NCBI RefSeq assembly: GCF_038443385.1
Contig: NZ_CP151726.1
Coordinates: forward strand, 1,302,001 to 1,366,000
From: Stieleria varia
Lineage (GTDB): Bacteria > Planctomycetota > Planctomycetia > Pirellulales > Pirellulaceae
DNA length: 64,000 nt
Direction: 5' to 3'
Shown piece after piece: positions 4,686-21,928 of the stretch. The notes under the pieces are model-generated. The model searched no databases. It worked only from the letters and a program-made list of their open reading frames with translations, and had not been told where the DNA came from. The translations under genes were made by a program, and so were the position numbers. How positions within the stretch are numbered: the first letter of the stretch is position 1; every line of letters begins with the position of its first letter.

Positions 4686-5704
4686 ACCGGCTGGTCAGGA
4701 GTGCTCGTGATGGTCGGACGAATGTCGTCTTCGTCATCTCCCCCGTCGTTGCTCAGCTCGGCGACTGCCTCTGCCATCGCGGTTGCAAAGTCTGTGATTT
4801 CTTCTCGCTGTGCATCGGTGATGCTCATGTGGCGAAAGATCGGCGATTCGTTCTTCTGAACATTGCCATCTTTGACGGTCAGTGTGATACCGATCGCAGA
4901 CAAAAAGTCGTTGCTCTCGCATGTCGGACACTCCGCCATTCGCAACTCGACGTAGCTGGACGTGTTGTGTGTTGAAATCTGCAATTTCTTTAACGCGTCC
5001 AAATTCCCCATGCGAACTTGCTGCCACGCGGGGTCAGCCGTCGAAACGGGCAGCACCGCCAGTTCCTGAGTCTCATCCGTCCAGCGATTGCAGATTTCGC
5101 AGAACGGACGATCGCCGTATGCCGCGGAGCGAGCGACCCATGCCGTCCCGAAGATGACGGCCGCCTCGAACAACCAAATCGCAACGGCACCGAATCCGCT
5201 CACCGCGTTGCCGCCGTTGCCCATTCCCCACAATCCTTGGGTGTAAATGAATTCCATCCAACCGAGGATCATTTGAGGCAGGAAACCCACGATCGCCGCT
5301 ACGATCACATCAGAGTTGAACCCTTCGTCCATCGAGATCACCAACGCCGGGTGAACCGCCCACGCGGAATAGTAGCTGACGAAAGCGAACGCCAGCCCCA
5401 TCAGCATGACGACCAAGTTGTTTCGGAACTTGAGCTGATACGCAAGCCAACCGGCGATCGCTCCCAGTGCCCCACCGTACAACAACGTGATCAGCCCCCG
5501 CAGCTTGATGAACGGCAGATAGACAACGGCGGCGGAGTACACGACGCCCATCAAGATGGCCAGCGGGACCAAGATGCATGCGGCAAGGACCATCGAGCCG
5601 ACGGGCACTTTCCCGCTGTGCTTGTACAGGACAGGAGCACTCAACGGGTTGACCGATGGGGACGCGACGGGAGCCGTGTAGGGGTTCTCGAAGGAGTCAC
5701 TCAT
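4682..5704 (-). CDS. Hypothetical multi-pass membrane protein with C-terminal Cys pairs
   Basis: 340 residues, family not recognised. A Pro/Ser-rich cytoplasmic N-terminus is followed by four or five hydrophobic helices between about 35 and 190 (MVLAACILVPLAILMGVVYS, LITLLYGGALGAIAGWLAY, LVVMLMGLAFAFVSYYSAW, AIWLFEAAVIFGTAW). The soluble C-terminal part has two CxxC pairs (FCEICNRW and ECPTCESN), which could bind one zinc ion. It ends in an acidic tail. It is the first gene of a two-gene unit with the PH-domain protein and overlaps it by 4 bp. Confidence 0.65.
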   Translation of the reverse strand: MSDSFENPYTAPVASPSVNPLSAPVLYKHSGKVPVGSMVLAACILVPLAILMGVVYSAAVVYLPFIKLRGLITLLYGGALGAIAGWLAYQLKFRNNLVVMLMGLAFAFVSYYSAWAVHPALVISMDEGFNSDVIVAAIVGFLPQMILGWMEFIYTQGLWGMGNGGNAVSGFGAVAIWLFEAAVIFGTAWVARSAAYGDRPFCEICNRWTDETQELAVLPVSTADPAWQQVRMGNLDALKKLQISTHNTSSYVELRMAECPTCESNDFLSAIGITLTVKDGNVQKNESPIFRHMSITDAQREEITDFATAMAEAVAELSNDGGDDEDDIRPTITSTPDQPV

Positions 5705-6049
5705 GCAATCGGTCCTAGATTAGAAAAGTGCTGGAGAAGAAAGGGGTGCCTTTGCCCGACTATATCCGACGCAAAACCTCGGCGGGGTGTGGGCGCATAA
5801 AAAAACGTGCGAACGTTGATATGCACTCATGATTTGCTGCGCTAAATCTTAGGGTAGCGAAACTCGTCAAGAGTTCCGGCCGTCAGCAGAAAGCGGCGAA
5901 AGTCACGCACGACTTTCGCTATGGCCGCACCCCATAATCCTGAACTGTCAAAAAGCGAGGGTTGTGGACTCGGTTTGCGCAAGGTTTTTCTTGCTTCCGC
6001 CGGTCTTGCTCTGGGCTTGCTCTGGGCTTGTCCCAGGCAAGCCCTGGGC
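5705..6049. other. Intergenic region with degraded repeat sequence
   Basis: No convincing gene. It contains self-complementary stretches around GCGAAAGTC/GACTTTCGC (5892-5919) and tandem CTTGCTCTGGG units followed by the inverted CAGGCAAGCCC (6003-6050). The only open frame (minus, about 87 codons) has low-complexity composition and crosses into the adjacent repeat, so it is not called. Confidence 0.5.
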
Positions 6050-6267
6050 TGTTCAAAATCTGGCGTTGACATTGATTTTTCAGTCCATATTTTTGTCCCA
6101 TGCATCGCAATCAGAGTGAGCCTCAGGCGCTAGCCGTGGGCCGGCACCACAATCCGCCTCAGGCCCACGGCTAGCGTCTGAGGCTCACTGGGGGCCACCA
6201 GCTGCGTCGGGAGAGGTGACAGAAACTTGCGGAGCGCCATAGTGCCACAACACCAACCCTTTGATCA
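6050..6267. repeat. MITE-like element, family B, copy 1
   Basis: About 218 bp, closely similar in inverted orientation to 63717-63932. The ends are imperfect inverted repeats (TGTTCAAAATCTGGCGTTGA left, CACCAACCCTTTGATCA right). The centre is a long palindrome with GCTAGCCGTGGGCC and GGCCCACGGCTAGC arms around a 19-bp loop (6113-6192). It carries no coding capacity. Confidence 0.75.
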
Positions 6268-6305
6268 GCCCAGGCTCATCCCAAAAACAAGACTGGGCGA
6301 GTGCC

Positions 6306-7613
6306 TTAAAGTTCCAGGAACAATCGTGCGGGGTCTTCGATCACTTCTTTGATGGTTTTCAAGAATCCCACAGCTTCGCGGCCGTCCACGATTCGGTGAT
6401 CGTAAGTCAACGCGACGTACATCATCGGCCGGATCTCGACTTTGCCGTCGATCGCGACCGGGCGATCTTGGATGCTGTGCAAACCAAGGATGCCGCTTTG
6501 TGGCGGGTTGACGATGGGTGTGCTCAACAGTGATCCGTAGATACCACCGTTGCTGATGGTGAACGTGCCGCCGATCAGGTCTTCGGGTTGCAGACGGTTC
6601 TCGCCTGCTTGCTGAGCGAAGTCACCGATCGACCATTCGACTTCGGCAAACGACATCCGTTCGACGTTTCGCAAGATCGGAACGACGAGCCCTTTGCCAC
6701 CACCGATCGCGATCCCGATGTCCTGATAGTTGCGAAAGATCGCGTTGTCTTCACGAATCTCGGCGTTCACCGCTGGATAACGACGCAGCGCCTCCACGGA
6801 GGCTTTGGCAAAGAACGACATGAAGCCCAACTTGACGCCATGCTTCTTGAGAAACGCGTCCTTGTATTTTTGACGAATCTCCATGACGGGTTTCATGTCG
6901 ATTTCATTGAACGTCGTCAACAACGCGGCGTTCTGCTGAGCTTGAACCAAGCGAGCGGCGATCGTTCGACGCAGCATGCTCAGCGGCTTGACTTCCTCAC
7001 TGCGGTGCGGCGGGTCGCTGGTGACCAAGGAGGTTGGTCGCGGCGGCCCACTGGGCTTTGCAGGAGCAGCGGCAGCAGGTTTTGGAGCCGTGAGCCCGGC
7101 GGCGGCAGGGGCGGAGGGCGCCGACTTGCTCAAGTGAGCCTCGACATCTTCCTTCAACAGCCGTCCTCCTGGGCCCGTCGCTTTGATGTCCCCAGCATTG
7201 AGGCCGTACTCGGTCAACAAACGCTGGGCGGCGGGCATGATGATGGACGCGCCGGCGGATGAAGATGCACCGGTGGAAGATGCACCGGATGCAGTAGCGC
7301 CACTTGAGGGGCTGGATTCGGCCGGTGCCGAGCCGGCAGTCTCACCACCGTCACCGCCACCGGGACTCGGGGCGACTCGGATCTTGGCGATGACTTCGCC
7401 GACCTTGGCAAACTCCTCGGATTGCTTGGTGATGCTCTCCAAGAATCCGTCGGCGGGCGAAGGCAATTGAACGGACGCCTTTTCGGTTTCAATTTCCAGC
7501 AGGTCTTCCCCCGACGCGACCCAGTCGCCTTCGGATTTCAACCACGTTCCCAGTTGGACTTCCGTGATCGACTCACCCACGGTGGGAATCTCAACGTTGA
7601 CTTCTTTGCTCAC
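6306..7613 (-). CDS. odhB: Dihydrolipoyllysine succinyltransferase (E2 of 2-oxoglutarate dehydrogenase)
   Basis: 435 residues in classical E2 order. A lipoyl domain (about 3-78) carries the modified lysine K45 in EIETEKASV. An Ala/Ser/Gly-rich linker leads to a peripheral E1/E3-binding domain (about 127-164; [26 protein letters not shown]). A second Pro/Ala linker leads to the acyltransferase core with His406 and Asp410 in [10 protein letters not shown]. It moves the succinyl group from lipoate to CoA in the TCA cycle. The single lipoyl domain and GESITEV start favour the 2-oxoglutarate over the pyruvate complex. No E1 or E3 gene is adjacent. Confidence 0.88.
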
Positions 7614-7954
7614 GATCCAGGCTTTTCAGAAAGGCGAAATAAGTGGGAATTCGGCATCTCCGGCAAAGTGCACCGGCAGTGCACCGTTTCTTTACACCGG
7701 TTCTGTGCCGATAGGATACGACGCAAGGGTAGGAATCGGCAATTCCGGCAAGGCCTTCGTGAGAGGAATCGTCCCGGATTTTAACTTCTCCGCAGCACGG
7801 GGTCGTAACGACGATTCAAGTCATCCGGTCGGTCATCGCCGCCAGAGCCGCAAAATGGGCCAATGAACTGTCTTTCGGCGATTGGTCGGATCGATCTCTA
7901 GAGGATGACCCCCGAAGCTCTTTTTTTGACTCAGGATTCCATCTTTAAAACCTC
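7614..7954. other. Divergent intergenic region, no gene seen
   Basis: 341 bp between the divergently transcribed odhB and the EEP-like gene. It should carry both promoters. I see no convincing gene, tRNA or dispersed repeat in it. Confidence 0.5.
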
Positions 7955-13885: not shown

Positions 13886-14278
13886 GTAGAAGATTGTCAG
13901 GGGAGGATTCACGGTGGGGGGCTCTTCAAAATTTTCTACCAATTCCTTCCGCCGGCAAGTGATGGGCATGCGGGCGACGTTGAGACGATTTGGTAGAAGA
14001 TTGTCGGGGTAGAAGATTGCAGGGGTAGGAGATTGCAGGAGTAGAAGATTGTCGGGGGAGGATGCACGGTGGGGGGCTCTTCAAAATTTTCTACCCGCAA
14101 TTTTCTACCCGCAATTTTCTACCCGCAATTTTCTACCCGCAATTTTCTACCCGTCATTTTCTACCCGTCATTTTCTACCCGTCATTTTCTACCCGTCATT
14201 TTCTACCCGTCATTTTCTACCCGTCATTTTCTACCCGTCATTTTCTACCCGTCATTTTCTACCCGTCATTTTCTACCC
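13886..14278. repeat. Compound tandem repeat array with opposite-facing units
   Basis: Two related repeat types face each other. Left: four 16-bp units GTAGAAGATTGCAGGG (13993-14056, with variants). Right: thirteen 14-bp units, four TTTTCTACCCGCAA then nine TTTTCTACCCGTCA, plus a partial unit (14087-14278). The right units are nearly the reverse complement of the left ones. A 55-bp block (13886-13940) recurs at 14041-14094 and itself begins GTAGAAG and ends TTCTAC. The 14-bp period keeps all forward frames open, which produces spurious ORFs. The end of the array overlaps the stop codon of the napF-like gene. Confidence 0.9.
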
Positions 14279-15088
14279 TTTCTTGCTCGGCCGCTCAAAG
14301 GCGGGCATCAGCAGGATGGCGTTTTCGGGTGCCGGACATACGTAGCGGCATACTCCGCATCCGGTGCAGGTGTCTTCGATGACGATCGGCTTGCCTTGAG
14401 TGACTTCAATGGCGCCCTCGACGGGGCAACGTTCGCTGCACACGGTGCAAGTGGTGTGGTGATGAGCCAAGCATAGGTGCTCAATCACACGGGCGGTGCC
14501 CATGATCGGCGGGATCGTGTCGATCAGCACACCAGGCTTGCACGATGCGATGCAAGGAAAGTCTTCGCACATCATGCACGCGGAAGTGTCGGCTTCGATG
14601 ACAGGCGTGCCGGCGATATTTCCGAGTCGATCGGGTGCTTGGACAATCGCGTCATAAGGGCACGCGGTGAGGCAGTCGCCACATCGGGTGCATCCGGTGA
14701 GGAATTGAAATTCGTCGATCGCTCCCGGCGGACGATGCACAGGGATGGTTCGCGATACCGATCGGTTGCCAAGATCAGTCGGCGGCACCGGGTCGATATT
14801 GATGCCACCGATGCTGCGTGGTGGCTGCGTCGCTGGCTCTGGTTGGTGCGGTTTGGGTAGCCGAGTGACCAACGGTACAAACCGGTCCGACGGAATCAGT
14901 CGCCAGAAACGTCCTTGGAGTAGATCGCGGCGGCTTTGATTGGCGCGAGCGGGGCGGAATAGAAGCGTCCAGAGAAAAGCGGGAAGCCAAAGAGCAGCAA
15001 AGGCGATTCGCTTGATCGCCGACGACTTCGTCCTGGCAGTACGGTCGTCCTCCTCTGCATCACTCCGGCTCTCGCGACTTTGCGTCAA
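14273..15088 (-). CDS. NapF/NapG-like polyferredoxin of the nitrate reductase operon
   Basis: 271 residues with four [4Fe-4S] motifs: CTRCGDCLTAC, CMMCEDFPCIASC, CTVCSERC and CTGCGVCRYVC. The N-terminus has a hydrophobic stretch (IAFAALWLPAFLWTLLF) and a NapF-like SRRDLLQGRFWR box. NapF and NapG proteins carry electrons or assist NapA maturation. It is the last gene of napD-napA-napB-like-napF. It starts with TTG preceded by GGAGAG and lies 12 bp after the cytochrome gene. The TAG stop lies inside the first unit of the adjacent repeat array. NapF and NapG cannot be separated with certainty. Confidence 0.8.
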   Translation of the reverse strand: MTQSRESRSDAEEDDRTARTKSSAIKRIAFAALWLPAFLWTLLFRPARANQSRRDLLQGRFWRLIPSDRFVPLVTRLPKPHQPEPATQPPRSIGGINIDPVPPTDLGNRSVSRTIPVHRPPGAIDEFQFLTGCTRCGDCLTACPYDAIVQAPDRLGNIAGTPVIEADTSACMMCEDFPCIASCKPGVLIDTIPPIMGTARVIEHLCLAHHHTTCTVCSERCPVEGAIEVTQGKPIVIEDTCTGCGVCRYVCPAPENAILLMPAFERPSKKG

Positions 15089-15100
15089 ATTTCTCTCCGG

Positions 15101-15910
15101 CTATTTTGTAACGACATCCAGTGGTGGCAGCATCGGCACAGATTCCGGACCGTACCATTCCGCTTCGGGCATTTGGTCCAGCGTTGCAGAGGGGGCGTGG
15201 CATTGGGTGCAGTTGGTTCGCCACGGGTGCGTTGATTCCATTCCGGCCCATCCGTTGGGTCCGCCGTGACACGCGTTACAGTTCTCGCGCATCCACTGTG
15301 AGTGTGGGATTGTCGGCGGTGCTCCCTGGTACGCTCGCTTGCCTGCTTTCGGTGCCGGCAGTCCGACAAAACTCGATTCGACCGATGTGCCAGCGTCTTG
15401 GAACGGTGCCGGCGGCATCGGTGCGTGACACTGAGTGCAATTGCCCAGGAACGGGTGAGACATCACGCTGGCTTTTAAGCCCGCCATCTGCACGCCGCTA
15501 CCATGACAAGCGTAACAAGCTGCGTCTGTCGTGTTTTCAATCGGGTGCGGAATGATCGGCGGAGCACCGTTGAAGGCGCGACGCGACGCCCGAAGTTTGC
15601 CGGACGCTTCTTTCTCCGATTTGCTCGGCTCGATTTTGGCGTAGAGATCGTACTGCGGCTGCGACAACGATTGCCGCTGGGCTTGCCAGGCCTTCGTCGG
15701 ACCCATCGGTGTTTCGGCAATGTCGGCGTACGACACCGCGGGGATAAGCTTCGGATTTTCCTCGATCTTTTCATTGTCGAATTTCGCGACGAGCGCCGGT
15801 TCATGCAAACCGTCAGGTTGCGGCACACCGTCCATGATGCCGACAAAGAAACCGACCACCGCGATGGCGATGATGCAGGAAAAAAAGATCGGTGCAAGTC
15901 GTCGCATCAT
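15101..15910 (-). CDS. Tetraheme NapB-like cytochrome c, nitrate reductase electron-transfer subunit
   Basis: About 269 residues from the ATG at 15910, which overlaps the napA stop (ATGA). One N-terminal anchor (FFSCIIAIAVVGFFVGIM) leads to a periplasmic domain with four CxxCH haem sites: CYACH, CTQCH, CNACH and CTQCH. Each pair sits in a repeated frame (GAPPIIPHP.. and GAPPTIPHS.., then HPFLGNCTQCH and HPWRTNCTQCH). The protein therefore looks like a duplicated NapB module, where ordinary NapB has two haems. It probably passes electrons to NapA. An ORF extension to 15949 exists but would overlap napA further. Confidence 0.8.
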   Translation of the reverse strand: MMRRLAPIFFSCIIAIAVVGFFVGIMDGVPQPDGLHEPALVAKFDNEKIEENPKLIPAVSYADIAETPMGPTKAWQAQRQSLSQPQYDLYAKIEPSKSEKEASGKLRASRRAFNGAPPIIPHPIENTTDAACYACHGSGVQMAGLKASVMSHPFLGNCTQCHAPMPPAPFQDAGTSVESSFVGLPAPKAGKRAYQGAPPTIPHSQWMRENCNACHGGPNGWAGMESTHPWRTNCTQCHAPSATLDQMPEAEWYGPESVPMLPPLDVVTK

Positions 15911-18327
15911 GACGGCGCCTCGGCCAGTTTCTTCACGCGCGCGGCGCATTTCTTGTAGTCCGGCTGTTTAGAAAACGGATCGTGAGCGTCCAGCGTGCAG
16001 TTGTTGATCAGCTTCGTTTCGTCAAAAAAGGGAACGAAGATTGTTCCGCGTGGTGGGCGACCACGACCATCGATCCAGACCGGCAACTCGCATTTCCCGC
16101 GACGTGACTCGACGATCACCCGTTCGCCTTGGCGGATATTGGCTGCCTTGGCGTCTTCCGGATTCATTTCGAGATAGGCCGTCGGCATCGCCCGAGAGAG
16201 TTGTGAAACGCGTCGCGTCATCGTGCCGCTATGCCAATGCTCCAGCACGCGACCGGTACACAGCCACATCGGAAACTCCTCATCAGGCATCTCCGGTGGC
16301 GGAGCATATTCGTGGAACCAAATCTGGGCGCGGCCGTCGTTGGTCGAGGAATGATAGAAATCGAACTCTTGTCCCGCGGTGACAAACGGATCGTCAAACC
16401 CCGAGAACCGGAATTTGGTTTCTCGCCACGATCCGTCATCTTGCTCAACGACCGGCCAACGCAACCCGCGTGCTTTCACGTATTCATCGTACGGCGCGAG
16501 GTTCTTATGCTTCATCGTCGTGAATTGACGGTACTCCTCAAACAGATGCTTATCGACGTTGGTATCGTAGTAATGATCAAACTCCCAAATGGGAATTTCT
16601 TCCCCGGCTTCGTTCTTCACCGCGAAGATGAACTCGCCGTCCTTGTCTTTCATCCCTTCGTAGCCCATCTCGAACAACTTATGCGCGATCGCGATCGTCA
16701 TCCAGCAATCATCGCGAGCCTCACCGGGCGGATCGACCATTTTGAACCATTGCTGCGTTCGCCGTTCACTGTTGCCATACACGCCGTTCTTTTCCACCCA
16801 CATCGCCGCAGGCAAAATCAAATCGGCCAAAACAGTCGTCGCGGTCGGGTACACATCGCTGACGATTAGAAATTTATCTTCGAGACCTTGCTTGTCGTTG
16901 AACAACGCGTTCAAGTTCGGCAGCGTCTGGCCGGGGTTGGTGACTTGCACGAACATCGTCGTGATGTCCCCGCCCTGGGATGTCGGTTTCGTGAACTGCT
17001 CGAACATCTTCACCGTGTGATATCCGGGGGTGGCGTTGATGCTGCCGGGCGACAAGTTCCAGAACCCTTCGCATTGCTCGCGGTGCTCTGGATTGGCAAC
17101 AACACGACCACCAGGCAACGCGTGCGCAAGCGTGCCAACTTCGCGAACCGTGCCGCACGCCGAAGGTTGACCGGTCAGGCTGGTCGGCGCGTCGCCGGGC
17201 CGACCGAAATGGCCCGATAGCAAGTGAACACCATGAACCAACGAATTGATCGCGGTGCCCATTGTGTGTTGATTCATCCCCATGCACCACAGCGATGTGA
17301 TGCGGATGTCGTGGTTACCGAACAAGTCAGCCAGCATTCGGATCTGATCCGCAGGCACGCCCGACAGTTCTTCGACCCGTTCCGGCGTGTACTTGGCGAT
17401 GCGTTTGCGAAACTCTGCTTCGCTGATCTGTTCGCCCTGCAGCGTCGGCGTCAGTTCTTCGGCGCCGCGGAAGTTACAGTGTTTCTCGACGAATGACTTG
17501 TCGTAGTTGTTGTTCTCGATGAGTAAATGCATGATGCCCAGCGAGATTGCCACGTCGCCGTGCGGCTTCATTTCCAGATAATCGTTGGCCGCATCGGTTG
17601 TGCGTGTTTTCCGAGTGCCGATGTCGATAATGCGAACCGTCTCGCCGCGCGATCGCCGGTCGGTAACGCGCGAGAACAACACCGGGTGCATTTCAGCCGG
17701 GTTATTACCCCAGGTGATCAGCACGTCACACTCGTCGAGATCTTGATAGCAACCGGCCGGTTCGTCGACTCCGTAGGTTGCCAAGAAACCGGTCACGGCC
17801 GACGCCATGCAGAGTCGTGCGTTGGGGTCGATGTGATTATTGCCCAGGCCGCCCTTCATAAACTTTTGAGCAGCATAGCCTTCGGGGATCGTCCATTGCC
17901 CGCTGCCATAAAATGCGAATGTCTGAGGGGAATCAAAGATACGTTTGGCGATCGTTTCGATCGCTTCGTCCCATTCAATTTCCGTCAGCTTGCCGTCTTT
18001 GCGGAGCAGCGGATTGGTCAGGCGGTCTTTGCCATAAAGGATGCCGCCGACGTGATAGCCTTTGACGCACAACAATCCCTTATTGACGTCGGCGGCCTTG
18101 TCACCGGCAATCGCAACGACGCGTCCATCTTCCACGCCGACTTGCACGTGGCAACCGGTCCCGCAGAAACGACACGGCGCCTTGTTCCACGTCATGCCTT
18201 CACCCGTCGGCAAATCGTCAACGGCTTGGTCGGCGTGAACCACCGGCAACGATGTGTTGCCCGCGACCATCGAACCGGCCGCCGCCATCGCGGCTGACTT
18301 CAAGAAACTGCGACGTTTGGCATCCAT
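15907..18327 (-). CDS. napA: Periplasmic nitrate reductase catalytic subunit
   Basis: 806 residues, full length. A Tat signal (RRSFLK at 5-10, then a hydrophobic stretch and HA cleavage) directs the folded molybdoprotein to the periplasm. The [4Fe-4S] cluster is bound by Cys52, Cys55, Cys59 and Cys87 (CRFCGTGC, KGLLCVKG). Cys173 in ARLCMASAV is the expected molybdenum ligand. Later motifs include TWGNNPAEMHP and the C-terminal molybdopterin-dinucleotide-binding domain (LCTGRVLEHWHSGTMTRR). It reduces nitrate to nitrite. The start overlaps the napD stop by one base. Confidence 0.95.
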   Translation of the reverse strand: MDAKRRSFLKSAAMAAAGSMVAGNTSLPVVHADQAVDDLPTGEGMTWNKAPCRFCGTGCHVQVGVEDGRVVAIAGDKAADVNKGLLCVKGYHVGGILYGKDRLTNPLLRKDGKLTEIEWDEAIETIAKRIFDSPQTFAFYGSGQWTIPEGYAAQKFMKGGLGNNHIDPNARLCMASAVTGFLATYGVDEPAGCYQDLDECDVLITWGNNPAEMHPVLFSRVTDRRSRGETVRIIDIGTRKTRTTDAANDYLEMKPHGDVAISLGIMHLLIENNNYDKSFVEKHCNFRGAEELTPTLQGEQISEAEFRKRIAKYTPERVEELSGVPADQIRMLADLFGNHDIRITSLWCMGMNQHTMGTAINSLVHGVHLLSGHFGRPGDAPTSLTGQPSACGTVREVGTLAHALPGGRVVANPEHREQCEGFWNLSPGSINATPGYHTVKMFEQFTKPTSQGGDITTMFVQVTNPGQTLPNLNALFNDKQGLEDKFLIVSDVYPTATTVLADLILPAAMWVEKNGVYGNSERRTQQWFKMVDPPGEARDDCWMTIAIAHKLFEMGYEGMKDKDGEFIFAVKNEAGEEIPIWEFDHYYDTNVDKHLFEEYRQFTTMKHKNLAPYDEYVKARGLRWPVVEQDDGSWRETKFRFSGFDDPFVTAGQEFDFYHSSTNDGRAQIWFHEYAPPPEMPDEEFPMWLCTGRVLEHWHSGTMTRRVSQLSRAMPTAYLEMNPEDAKAANIRQGERVIVESRRGKCELPVWIDGRGRPPRGTIFVPFFDETKLINNCTLDAHDPFSKQPDYKKCAARVKKLAEAPS

Positions 18328-18602
18328 TATTCTAGATTCCTGATTGATTCTCGTTCTGCGGTTTCGTTATCCTCGTCAAATGCGACCATGGCAACCGCTA
18401 AGTCGATCACTCCAGGTAACTCTCGGACCATATTCCATATTTGTTGGTCGCGGCGTTTGTCGGCCGAGTCGACAACGATCGCTAGTTTGCTGCCGCTAGC
18501 ATTTCCGATTTCGATTTCGGGCACTTCGTGCAGAGATTCTATCGCCGCGGAATGCTCCTCAACTTGCGAGGCGAACGTGATGACCAAGCCGCTAATAGGC
18601 AC
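18327..18602 (-). CDS. napD: NapD chaperone for NapA signal peptide
   Basis: About 91 residues from the GTG at 18602: MPISGLVITFASQ, followed by the compact ferredoxin-like fold with KLAIVVDSADK and ELPGVIDLAVAMVAFDED. NapD binds the Tat signal of NapA and holds back its export until the cofactor is inserted. A longer frame starts with TTG at 18638, but NapD normally begins just before the ISG strand. It is first in the operon and its TAA overlaps the napA ATG by one base. Confidence 0.82.
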   Translation of the reverse strand: MPISGLVITFASQVEEHSAAIESLHEVPEIEIGNASGSKLAIVVDSADKRRDQQIWNMVRELPGVIDLAVAMVAFDEDNETAERESIRNLE

Positions 18603-18715
18603 GGTGGCTGCTCTTTTAAAAGTGGCGGGAAGATGCAAAAGTGAGGTTTCGCTAACCTATACGTGAGTGTATACATTAAGTCTCGTCCGTGGAACCTCAT
18701 TTGGGACAGAAATTC
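18603..18715. promoter_or_regulatory. Divergent promoter region of the two nitrate reductase gene sets
   Basis: The short gap between napD and the cytochrome gene must drive both directions. I see no clear FNR box (TTGAT-N4-ATCAA). An imperfect palindrome around GTATAC (18669-18674, within ACGTGAGTGTATACATTAAG) is the only candidate operator. The functional assignment is inferred from gene arrangement only. Confidence 0.4.
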
Positions 18716-19471
18716 ATGCCGCGAACCGCCAGTATGCTCTTTGCCAGTGTGGTGTGCTTGGCCGTTGCGATGATTTTCGTCGTCGTCGGACGAGGCAACA
18801 CGCGAGACGATTCTCGCTCGCGCCGTGTCGGTGCGGATCAACGTGACGGTGCGGATCAAATCGCAAGCAATGCGCCGACGGCGGTTGCCGCGGAGGCTTC
18901 TGCCGATCAGAACACTGCGGCGAATACTGCGGCGAATACCGGCGGTTCAAGACACCCCATCATCATTCGCAAACCCACCGGCCCACCGCGGATCGAGCTG
19001 GCCGGGATGGACCCGCAAGGTCGAACCGGCAGCGTCGCTTGTTCGACCTGCCATGCCGTCCGCAAACCAAACTCGGAAAACGTGTCGGCCGCGACGCTGG
19101 ACGAATTTCACCAAGGCATGACGTTCAATCACGGCAAGATCGCCTGCTATGCCTGCCACAACCCCGACGACGCCGACACCTTGCGTTTAGCCGACGGACA
19201 GTCGATCGCGTATGAAAATGTGATGACGCTGTGTTCGCAGTGCCATAGCAAACAGGCCGAGTCGTTTGCCCATGGTGCGCACGGCGGCATGAACGGGCAT
19301 TGGGATCTCACTCGCGGTCCACAAATGAAGAACAATTGCATCGACTGTCACGATCCCCACTCACCGACTTATCCCAGGATGGTCGTCGGCTTCAAACCCA
19401 AAGACCGCTTTAACGCCCCGCTTAGCCATCACCACGACCACCAAGGAGCGGAATCGCATGACGACCACTGA
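18716..19471 (+). CDS. Tetraheme cytochrome c, membrane anchored
   Basis: About 251 residues from the ATG at 18716 (a GTG at 18689 is possible). An N-terminal hydrophobic anchor (MLFASVVCLAVAMIFVVVG) and an Ala/Asn-rich spacer precede a domain with four CxxCH sites: CSTCH, CYACH, CSQCH and CIDCH. The His-rich tail ends SHHHDHQGAESHDDH. It overlaps the next gene (FeS subunit) by 14 bp, and the set ends with an NrfD-like protein. This resembles the cytochrome partner of NrfD-type quinone oxidoreductases. It probably links the quinol pool to the periplasmic NapB-like cytochrome. Confidence 0.78.
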   Translation: MPRTASMLFASVVCLAVAMIFVVVGRGNTRDDSRSRRVGADQRDGADQIASNAPTAVAAEASADQNTAANTAANTGGSRHPIIIRKPTGPPRIELAGMDPQGRTGSVACSTCHAVRKPNSENVSAATLDEFHQGMTFNHGKIACYACHNPDDADTLRLADGQSIAYENVMTLCSQCHSKQAESFAHGAHGGMNGHWDLTRGPQMKNNCIDCHDPHSPTYPRMVVGFKPKDRFNAPLSHHHDHQGAESHDDH

Positions 19472-20399
19472 GAACGCTCGCAAACCATCACTACCGATCG
19501 TCGAGAACTTCACGCGACGTGCGGCTGTGAAAGGCGGCTTCGCAACACTCGGCGCTGCCGCGTTTGTGGCCGCCGTGTCGCCGCTGCGGCAAGCCGCCGA
19601 GGACAAGTCGGCGGCGGAGTTCATGCAGCAGCACTACACCGAGCTGTCGCCCCAGCAAAAGGCCGATGTGATCGCTCGATTGGAAGCCGAAGCGAAAGAG
19701 AACTACGGCGCAGACGTAACGATCGCCGACGACCGACCGATCCCTGGAACGAAATTTGTCTACGCGATCAACCTGAGTGTTTGCAACGGCAACGGCAAAT
19801 GCGTTGAAGCTTGCCACAAAGAAAACAACCATGACCGCGACACCAACCAGTCGTATATCCGCGTGCTTGAAATGCCCAAGGGCACGATGGACATGGAAAA
19901 AGGCAACACGACTTACACCGGAGCCGTCCCTCAAGACGACAAGTTCTACTTGCCTGTTCAGTGCCAGCAATGCGACGAGCCACCGTGCGTTGACGTTTGC
20001 CCGGTGAAGGCGACGTGGAAGGAAGAGGATGGCATCGTCGTCGTGGACTACAACTGGTGCATCGGATGCCGGTATTGCGAAGCCGCTTGCCCCTATCACG
20101 CGCGTCGCTTCAACTGGAAAAAGCCAGAAGTGCCGGCCGACGAAGTCAATCCGGACCAGAGCTACTTGAGCAACCGTATCCGCCCGGTCGGTGTCGTCGA
20201 AAAGTGCACCTACTGCCTGCACCGAACTCGACGTGGCAAATTGCCCGCTTGCCTGGAAGCCTGCCCCACCGGCGCTCGCGTGTTCGGCAACATCCTCGAT
20301 AAAGATTCCAACATCCGCTGGATCCTGGAAAACAAACGCGTTTACATCCTAAAGGAAGAACTCGGCACGAAACCGGCGTTCTTTTATTACTTCGATTGA
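19458..20399 (+). CDS. NrfC/DmsB-type iron-sulfur protein (four [4Fe-4S] clusters)
   Basis: 313 residues. A Tat-like start (FTRRAAVKGGFATLGAAAFVA, about 18-38) suggests periplasmic location. The cysteine pattern is that of the four-cluster ferredoxins of the DMSO-reductase family: CNGNGKCVEAC, CQQCDEPPCVDVC, CIGCRYCEAAC and CTYCLHRTRRGKLPACLEAC. The start is well supported by AAGGAG 8 bases upstream. In such complexes this subunit carries electrons between the NrfD membrane subunit and a partner cytochrome. Confidence 0.88.
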   Translation: MTTTENARKPSLPIVENFTRRAAVKGGFATLGAAAFVAAVSPLRQAAEDKSAAEFMQQHYTELSPQQKADVIARLEAEAKENYGADVTIADDRPIPGTKFVYAINLSVCNGNGKCVEACHKENNHDRDTNQSYIRVLEMPKGTMDMEKGNTTYTGAVPQDDKFYLPVQCQQCDEPPCVDVCPVKATWKEEDGIVVVDYNWCIGCRYCEAACPYHARRFNWKKPEVPADEVNPDQSYLSNRIRPVGVVEKCTYCLHRTRRGKLPACLEACPTGARVFGNILDKDSNIRWILENKRVYILKEELGTKPAFFYYFD

Positions 20400-20418
20400 C
20401 GAAAGTGAGCCGACGGCG

Positions 20419-20601
20419 TTAGCCCGAATCATTCATGCGCCGCAACGCGATAGCGTCCGGTTCCCGAATATAGGGGTGAGAACCGGACGCTATCGCGTGG
20501 CGGCTGATATGCGCAGACTGCTTTCGTGCCAATCCGCGCAAGCCGTTTCACGCAAACGTGTTGCGATGACCGTAGTGAGTCGCGTGAATAATCCGGGCTA
20601 G
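20419..20601. repeat. MITE-like element, family A, inside the NrfD operon
   Basis: 183 bp with terminal inverted repeats TTAGCCCGAATCATTCAT and GTGAATAATCCGGGCTAG. A central hairpin has 18-bp arms (CGCGATAGCGTCCGGTTC and its complement). It fills most of the 263-bp gap between the FeS and NrfD genes, where operon spacing is otherwise tight. It is similar to 2069-2252 internally and to 22620-22788 at its ends. Confidence 0.8.
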
Positions 20602-20662
20602 CGGGCCGTTCTTTTCAATCTCCCCAACTACCCTCGGTTCGCGCCGTCGGCTCTAAAATAAC

Positions 20663-21928
20663 ATGAGCAGCATCACCACAACGCCACAGCCTAACGAGCC
20701 CAACGGAAAACAGTCGCACATCACCAGCTACCCGAAATTCATCGGGCGATCGTTGTGGTTGGCGACCGAAGGATCGTTTGCGTTCTACGCATGGATGACG
20801 ATGTTGACCGCATTGTTCCTGGTCGGCGCAAACGCTTGGGCCAACCAAGTCGCGGGCGGAATGATTGCCACCAACATGACCGATCAAGTTTCGTGGGGAC
20901 TCTACATCGCCAACTTCACCTTCATGGTCGGATTAGCGGCAGGCGGCGTCATGATGGTGATTCCGGCGTACCTGTATCACGACCGCAAGATGCACGATGT
21001 CGTCATCATTGGCGAACTGCTTGCCATTGCCGCCATCGTGATGTGCCTGATGTTCGTTGTCGCCGATCTCGGACGGCCCGATCGGTTCTGGCACATGCTG
21101 CCCATCGTCGGCAAATTCAACTGGCCGATCTCGATGTTGACCTGGGACGTGATCGTGCTCAACGGTTACCTGCTGTTGAATCTGCACATTTGCGGCTATC
21201 TGCTGTACATGCGATTTCTCGGTCGCAAGCCCAATCCGACGTGGTACATCCCGTTCGTGATGCTGTCCATTGTTTGGGCGATCTCGATTCACACCGTCAC
21301 CGCGTTTCTTTACTGCGGCCTGGGCGGCCGACCGTTTTGGAACACGGCACTTCTTGCACCACGTTTCCTTGCATCCGCGTTTGTCTCCGGTCCCGCGTTC
21401 ATCATCGTGTCGATGGTTCTGATCAAACGGTTGACCGGCGTGGGCGGACTCGACCAGCCGATCGCCACGCTCACCAAGATCATCCGCGTCACGATCCTGA
21501 TCAATCTGTTGATGGTCGCCTCAGAACTGTTCACCGAATTCTACACCGGTGGATCGCACGTCAGCGCCGCGAAGTATCTGTTCTTTGGCTTGCACGGCAA
21601 AACCGCACTCGTCCCGTGGACCTGGACCGCGATCGGGCTGAATGTCACGGCGGCGTTGCTGTTCTTGTGGCCGGGGCTGTTGAGATTGCGCTGGCGGCCG
21701 TTGCTCGTCACCGCTTGTTTGATGGCGTTCGTCGGTGCTTGGATCGAAAAAGGTATGGGGCTAATCATTCCAGGATTCGTCCCTAGCACGCTGCACGAGA
21801 TCGTCGAGTATGTCCCCAGCCAACTCGAATGGAAAGTCACGGTGGGAATCTGGGCGTTCGGGCTTATGGTATTCACCGTCGCCCTCAAAACTGCTCTCCC
21901 AACATTAAAGCATCCCGCTGAACACTGA
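20663..21928 (+). CDS. nrfD: NrfD/PsrC-family quinone-interacting membrane subunit
   Basis: 421 residues with about nine to ten membrane helices (for example FYAWMTMLTALFLVGANAW, FTFMVGLAAGGVMMVI, LAIAAIVMCLMFVVADLGRPD, VTAALLFLWPGLL). The VVADLGRPDRFWHM segment and charged residues inside early helices are typical of NrfD/PsrC/HybB proteins, which exchange electrons with the quinone pool without haem. With the two genes before it, it forms a cytochrome-FeS-NrfD complex. Its position beside napDA suggests it supplies quinol electrons for nitrate reduction in place of NapC. Confidence 0.85.
   Translation: MSSITTTPQPNEPNGKQSHITSYPKFIGRSLWLATEGSFAFYAWMTMLTALFLVGANAWANQVAGGMIATNMTDQVSWGLYIANFTFMVGLAAGGVMMVIPAYLYHDRKMHDVVIIGELLAIAAIVMCLMFVVADLGRPDRFWHMLPIVGKFNWPISMLTWDVIVLNGYLLLNLHICGYLLYMRFLGRKPNPTWYIPFVMLSIVWAISIHTVTAFLYCGLGGRPFWNTALLAPRFLASAFVSGPAFIIVSMVLIKRLTGVGGLDQPIATLTKIIRVTILINLLMVASELFTEFYTGGSHVSAAKYLFFGLHGKTALVPWTWTAIGLNVTAALLFLWPGLLRLRWRPLLVTACLMAFVGAWIEKGMGLIIPGFVPSTLHEIVEYVPSQLEWKVTVGIWAFGLMVFTVALKTALPTLKHPAEH

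Follow-up and report, generated by a model that had tools for sequence, protein, structure and literature searches.

Introduction

The NapEDABC and NapDABC systems of E. coli, Rhodobacter and Shewanella, in which the periplasmic nitrate reductase (Nap) is of the NapC/CymA type, contain NapD, NapA, NapB and a NapF-like ferredoxin. We analysed 64 000 nucleotides of the Stieleria varia chromosome (contig NZ_CP151726.1, positions 1 302 001 to 1 366 000; hereafter the window), in which a nap operon with these components lies back to back with genes for a tetrahaem cytochrome c, an iron-sulfur (FeS) protein and an NrfD-type membrane protein (the trio). It differs from the systems above in lacking NapC, in its tandem four-haem NapB and in the additional trio. 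In the NapAGHBFLD systems of Epsilonproteobacteria and the NapCMADGH system of Desulfovibrio, NapC is likewise missing or of lesser importance, and FeS proteins and a multihaem cytochrome assist; the window, in contrast, has no NapH, encodes an NrfD/DsrP-like quinol protein and retains NapB. The Nap cluster of Caldithrix abyssi has also lost NapC and carries another quinol-oxidizing module beside napA. There, the module is a Rieske/cytochrome b type with NapM, NapGH and epsilon-Hao (PMC5317091), whereas the module in the window is of the NrfD type.

Two further systems resemble the trio itself. In NrfABCD, the NrfBCD proteins are likewise a multihaem cytochrome, an FeS protein and NrfD that supply a periplasmic nitrogen-oxide reductase with electrons from quinol; in the window, however, the client would be NapA, the cytochrome has four haems instead of five, and NrfD is DsrP-like. 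The similarity to DsrJOP of DsrMKJOP is that NrfD passes the DsrP cut-off and that the FeS protein comes nearest to DsrO, with a score just below the cut-off. The window cytochrome is not DsrJ (four haems instead of three), the neighbouring genes include no DsrM or DsrK, and the trio is nap-linked. A review of May 2026 distinguishes four nap operon types, none with NrfD (PMC13223375), and a 2021 survey of NrfD complexes names no nitrate reductase (PMC8076601). In 2023, an MHC-4Fe4S-NrfD-ActD cluster was described beside nap in two Oslofjord Planctomycetota metagenome-assembled genomes, OFTM8 and OFTM33 (PMC10732223); that study does not propose a replacement of NapC and does not cover the tandem NapB, the NrfD clade or the linkage across phyla. 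Both bins are present in our locus set (L100 and L102) with the same nap genes and trio, but no actD-like gene was seen adjoining the trio in the window.

We conclude that the locus is very probably one functional unit, in which Nap has its own NrfD-type quinol dehydrogenase that would replace NapC or NapGH. The basis for this is the gene content and order, the co-occurrence and near-obligate linkage of nap and the trio, the absence of NapC and the conserved quinone-site residues of NrfD.

A nap operon divergent from an NrfD-type trio

A preliminary description, made from the DNA sequence, had reported napD, napA and a four-haem NapB-like gene running one way and the tetrahaem cytochrome-FeS-NrfD genes directly opposite. 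Reading the 14.2-22.0 kb stretch of the window, we found all seven genes in place, the nap set on the minus strand and the trio on the plus strand (Table 1). The ends of napD and napA overlap by 1 bp and those of the cytochrome and FeS genes by 14 bp, so that each strand looks like an operon; the gap between the two operons is ~50 bp.

NapA scored 875 bits with PRK13532 and 840 bits with TIGR01706, compared with 451 bits for the next family, and fell 3-10% short of both curated equivalog cut-offs. Its nearest solved structures are periplasmic nitrate reductases, and the motifs for twin-arginine translocation (Tat), the FeS cluster (from residue 53), the Cys-Lys loop (85) and the molybdenum-ligand loop NARLCM (169) are kept. 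Judged by its sequence, it is a divergent but true NapA and not another molybdoenzyme. NapD scored 30.6 bits with PF03927, above the Pfam cut-off of 28. The Nap-specific sequence of NapA with its FeS, Mo-Cys and Tat features, together with NapD and NapB encoded alongside, places the locus within the Nap family.

The last gene of the nap operon had been described as encoding a NapF-like ferredoxin. This holds for the N-terminus, where the stretch SRRDLLQGR resembles NapF, but the protein scored better with NapG (92 bits) and MauM/NapG (83 bits) than with NapF (58 bits), every score being under the curated cut-off. Because this ferredoxin is NapG/NapF-like, the original wording of a locus without NapGH has to be narrowed to one without NapH. 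The gene is absent or unrecognized in several relatives. At its 3′ end it is entered by a 14-bp tandem repeat (ATTTTCTACCCGTC; 13.8 copies, 98% matches; window 14086-14278).

Linkage of the trio to napA in five phyla

We surveyed 196 Pirellulales genomes, 392 Planctomycetota genomes and a pooled nonredundant set of 112 loci with an NrfD of at least 62% identity. Within the order, a NapA of the window type (62-100% identity) was present in 14 genomes and NrfD in 17. The trio was found in 14 of the 14 genomes having this NapA, always within 7 kb, and in three of the 182 lacking it (Fisher p ~8e-19, relatedness ignored). In these three NrfD-only genomes, one copy lies at a contig edge, and two copies are 46-56% identical and belong to other classes. 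At the level of the phylum, NapA accompanied an NrfD of at least 64% identity in 28 of 29 genomes, and the exception is located at a contig end. In the pooled set, napA was present in 88 of the 89 loci having at least 5 kb upstream of NrfD. A scan of named genomes, confined to the best 80 matches and thus favouring close relatives (a bias of which the phylum survey is free), detected the trio in Planctomycetota, Verrucomicrobiota (e.g. Haloferula, Persicirhabdus), Myxococcota (Archangium, Myxococcus), Acidobacteriota and Sumerlaeota.

These data show that a trio of this NrfD type is near-obligately linked to napA in at least five phyla; it does not occur mainly without napA. The divergent arrangement, which the preliminary description had considered for Pirellulaceae, is conserved, but that family is too narrow a frame, and divergence is not obligatory (86/99 loci; same strand in 13/99).

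Absence of NapC and NapH

The chromosome that contains the window is complete (9.72 Mb), and the NapC/NirT family PF03264 gave no match in it at E≤0.001; E. coli served as control for the NapC search and was positive. At E≤0.01, merely two weak matches appeared (E ~0.005, below cut-off), within frames of ~745 residues. For NapH, no match in the genome exceeded the cut-off, and no separate napH was found. Since their defining quinol dehydrogenases were searched for and not found, the locus stands outside the NapC and NapGH types.

The best NapH match below cut-off was a 773-residue NapH-NapG-like fusion (G000:C1:4374911-4377229, L001), which scored 104 bits with NapG and 68 bits with NapH. Given these similarities, the distant fusion could be the true quinol dehydrogenase of NapA. 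However, in the order it is patchily spread and not linked to Nap, being present in three of the 14 Nap+NrfD genomes and in 12 genomes without this Nap. As its distribution does not track Nap and 11 of the 14 carriers lack it, we rejected the fusion as a hidden donor and consider such a role extremely unlikely. Elsewhere in the genome there is thus neither napC nor a napGH acting as partner of Nap.

Unlike in the window genome, PF03264 was above cut-off in most relatives, in apparent contradiction to a NapC-independent Nap. Ten of these matches could be inspected as short tetrahaem proteins; they have the NrfH motif CxxCHxM and adjoin an NrfA-like multihaem gene, and for these ten we rejected an assignment to NapC in favour of NrfH. 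In L052 and L053, NrfHA adjoins the nap/trio cluster, a combination that would permit full nitrate ammonification. The window genome contains no NrfA (PF02335) above cut-off, which separates the locus from NrfABCD, and no NrfH, but two NirA/sulfite-reductase-like genes. Nitrite is therefore probably excreted or assimilated by this organism.

The trio, the tandem NapB and a predicted electron path

NrfD passed the DsrP model NF045798 (433 bits; cut-off 350) and scored 135 bits with PF03916 and just 29 bits with TIGR03148 (cut-off 348). The FeS protein was closest to DsrO (187 bits; cut-off 200), scored 119 bits with NrfC and has an RR motif. With an NrfD subunit and a periplasmic four-cluster ferredoxin in one operon, the trio belongs to the NrfD-type (CISM) modules. 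The cytochrome has four CXXCH motifs that are invariant across 13 homologues, and four haems were counted in 98 of 98 relatives; profile searches gave no match to a DsrJ or NrfB model above cut-off. One relative (L050/L078, G190 C71) has a cytochrome c554-like tetrahaem gene directly 5′ of the trio.

Residues Y81, D135, S157 and D162 of NrfD are invariant in the 15 closest homologues aligned. By their spacing, they probably correspond to Tyr52, Asp106, Ser124 and Asp129, the quinone site of DsrP1 according to Calisto and Pereira (PMC8076601). In a profile alignment to ActC of R. marinus, D162 fell on Asp169 and D135 on His139, both of which are quinone-site residues of ActC. The conservation of these positions predicts that NrfD oxidizes quinol.

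The NapB-like protein contains four CXXCH motifs, and PF03892 was above cut-off on its first half only. The two halves share 47% identity and align with a Smith-Waterman score of 135, compared with 42±8 for shuffled sequences in which the haem motifs were kept, and both units show the pattern R-A-x-x-GAPPxIPH...CxACH...NCTQCH. The four-haem NapB is a tandem duplication of a NapB-like dihaem unit. Four haem motifs were present in NapB of 87 of 90 relatives. For the window gene, a start nearer 15910, overlapping the napA stop, is more likely than the one in Table 1. Our literature search, with most subscription journals outside its scope, gave no description of a tetrahaem NapB and nothing on a NapC-less Nap with NrfD beyond the papers cited here; an earlier description of either is possible.

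From these components we infer which way electrons flow, in what order the carriers act and that the cytochrome contacts NapB directly. At its periplasmic face, the DsrP-like NrfD would oxidize quinol, probably menaquinol. The Tat-exported FeS protein, with its four clusters, would relay the electrons to the membrane-anchored tetrahaem cytochrome, which would hand them to the tandem four-haem NapB. NapA would receive them last, by way of its 4Fe-4S cluster and molybdenum, and reduce nitrate to nitrite. By analogy, the trio may work with NapAB as NrfBCD does in feeding NrfA, NapAB being the client. The reverse direction has a precedent in Qrc and Nhc, NrfD complexes that act as quinone reductases (PMC8076601); the trio would then pass electrons from periplasmic cytochromes to quinone, with NapA oxidizing nitrite or acting as a sink. 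Yet the nitrate/nitrite couple, at +420 mV, does not allow spontaneous quinone reduction, NapA is of a reductase family, and NapD and NapB are retained. We regard a reversed trio as hardly credible.

A sister NrfD clade and other partners of NapA

In a tree of 145 NrfD proteins, 112 rows formed one supported clade, and all but one of these are linked to napA or cut off by a contig edge. For 16 of the 21 loci of a sister clade (50-61% identity), among them L058, L203, L206, L208, L209, L211 and L218, the immediate neighbour of NrfD is an octahaem HAO-like cytochrome; napA is sometimes present too. This octahaem locus is a candidate quinol:nitrite or quinol:hydroxylamine reductase module. A third group (<50% identity) occurs without napA and without the octahaem cytochrome. 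In one genome (G526; L174 and L175), two trios are 35 kb apart: a napA-class orphan beside a NapB-like cytochrome, and an octahaem-class trio beside napA. Five mosaic loci (L047, L115, L118, L125 and L126) have NapA 81-89% and FeS protein 87-91% identical to those of the window and an NrfD that is just ~71% identical, as if NrfD alone had been swapped.

The sister clade raises the question of whether the trio chiefly serves a nitrite or other reductase and is near nap merely through a shared involvement in nitrogen respiration. A similar NrfD locus of Thermosulfurimonas was guessed to serve nitrite reduction (PMC5276818), which, like the 16/21 octahaem association, would fit such a role. However, none of the 112 NapA-class loci has an octahaem gene within 1.5 kb of NrfD, and NrfH and NrfA above cut-off are lacking from the window genome. 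This makes a nitrite or other reductase quite an unlikely main client of the trio.

Another NapA type of Pirellulales (~48% identity) has a four-haem NapB as well and adjoins an octahaem HAO-like cytochrome, cytochrome b and a Rieske protein. Its loci L061 and L062 (Table 1) resemble the cluster of Caldithrix abyssi (PMC5317091). The partners of NapA thus vary, yet in each of these cases a quinol-oxidizing module is encoded alongside, and this is our main reason for reading the trio as a substitute for NapC. The presence of the sister clade beside an octahaem HAO-like cytochrome makes the trio look like an interchangeable, plug-in quinol module.

NapC-type periplasmic nitrate reduction is usually considered non-energy-conserving. 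A tentative extension of our interpretation, which we think possible but less than probable, is that all seven proteins together make up an energy-conserving quinol:nitrate oxidoreductase. Here, the ActC/DsrP-like NrfD would pump protons as well as feed the four-haem NapB, nitrate reduction would be electrogenic, and the module would, in the course of evolution, have switched between NapA and an octahaem nitrite reductase as its partner.

Opposing observations and physiology

Some observations weigh against a dedicated role of the trio in nitrate respiration. At 5.478 Mb, the genome encodes a second NrfD, which is ActC-like and followed by an apparent ActD/cytochrome c protein. This ActC-like quinol complex is a possible alternative route to periplasmic cytochromes; NapAB would then draw on the general cytochrome c pool, supplied by an alternative complex III-like quinol complex, and the trio would do something else. 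Feeding of this kind is proven for Nap of Campylobacter jejuni, which receives electrons from Qcr without NapC (PMC6195509). Supply from the pool nevertheless leaves unexplained why the trio tracks napA in 88/89 loci and five phyla, and we consider it unlikely. For the tandem NapB and the tetrahaem cytochrome, AlphaFold2 gave models with a mean predicted local distance difference test score of 46 and 48, respectively, which were too poor to use. Finally, the literature describes an aerobic or microaerophilic lifestyle for cultured relatives (PMC10541342, PMC12910023), so that respiratory use of the locus is only predicted. Culturable carriers of the cluster include Stieleria tagensis, S. nitratireducens and Rhodopirellula europaea. 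Stieleria tagensis, which shares its GTDB genus with the window organism, can draw its nitrogen from nitrate; on the medium tested, it grew under microaerophilic but not under anaerobic conditions (PMC10541342). In view of this growth behaviour, a role in redox balance at low oxygen is as likely as one in anaerobic growth.

Regulatory genes were found in relatives. A gene for an Rrf2-family regulator is present in 45 of the 99 napA-class loci of at least 9 kb, mostly adjoining NrfD (Table 1); the 32 loci examined for the other two NrfD classes have no such gene, and neither has the window copy. Its presence fits a control by nitrite, nitric oxide or the iron-sulfur state in these relatives. 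The FNR-type dyad TTGAN6TCAA occurred in seven of 94 divergent intergenic regions (0.35 expected), and no clear dyad of this type was seen in the intergenic region of the window.

Table 1. Positions of the nap-trio genes in the window and of selected genes in loci of relatives
Feature	Position	Strand	Basis
NapF/NapG/MauM-group ferredoxin with several 4Fe-4S clusters; terminal gene of the nap operon	14273..15088	-	Profile scores
Tetrahaem NapB, tandem pair of NapB-like dihaem units, membrane anchor at the N-terminus	15101..15949	-	PF03892 and half-to-half comparison
napA, Tat-exported molybdenum periplasmic nitrate reductase	15907..18327	-	Profiles, structures, motifs
napD, maturation chaperone	18327..18638	-	PF03927
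Divergent intergenic region, presumed shared promoter region	18639..18688	.	~50 bp
Membrane-anchored tetrahaem cytochrome c	18689..19471	+	Four CXXCH
Four-cluster ferredoxin, DsrO/NrfC-like, twin-arginine leader	19458..20399	+	DsrO, NrfC profile scores
Putative NrfD-type quinol-binding membrane protein, DsrP-like	20663..21928	+	NF045798 DsrP profile
Rrf2 gene beside trio, L052	10708-11139		
Rrf2 gene beside trio, L053	9554-9985		
Rrf2 gene beside trio, L059	1005-1451		
Rrf2 gene beside trio, L102	9768-10208		
Second NapA type, L061 (G103)	4898-7417		Cytochrome b and Rieske-type genes instead of NrfD trio
Second NapA type, L062 (G091)	5418-7754		Cytochrome b and Rieske-type genes instead of NrfD trio

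Implications for nitrate reduction

The preliminary description had interpreted the locus as an alternative wiring of periplasmic nitrate reduction, and this interpretation is supported by the genomic comparisons presented here. New in this work are the near-obligate linkage across a broad range of bacteria, the tandem duplication of NapB and the octahaem-associated sister clade. The layout would constitute a further nap type, common to cultured planctomycetes, verrucomicrobia and myxobacteria, and an overlooked wiring of nitrate reduction; scoring nitrate respiration by napC or napGH overlooks whole lineages. The sister octahaem module suggests that quinol modules have been swapped as units in nitrogen respiration, and the locus of Stieleria varia offers an opportunity to test whether NrfD modules render periplasmic nitrate reduction energy-conserving.

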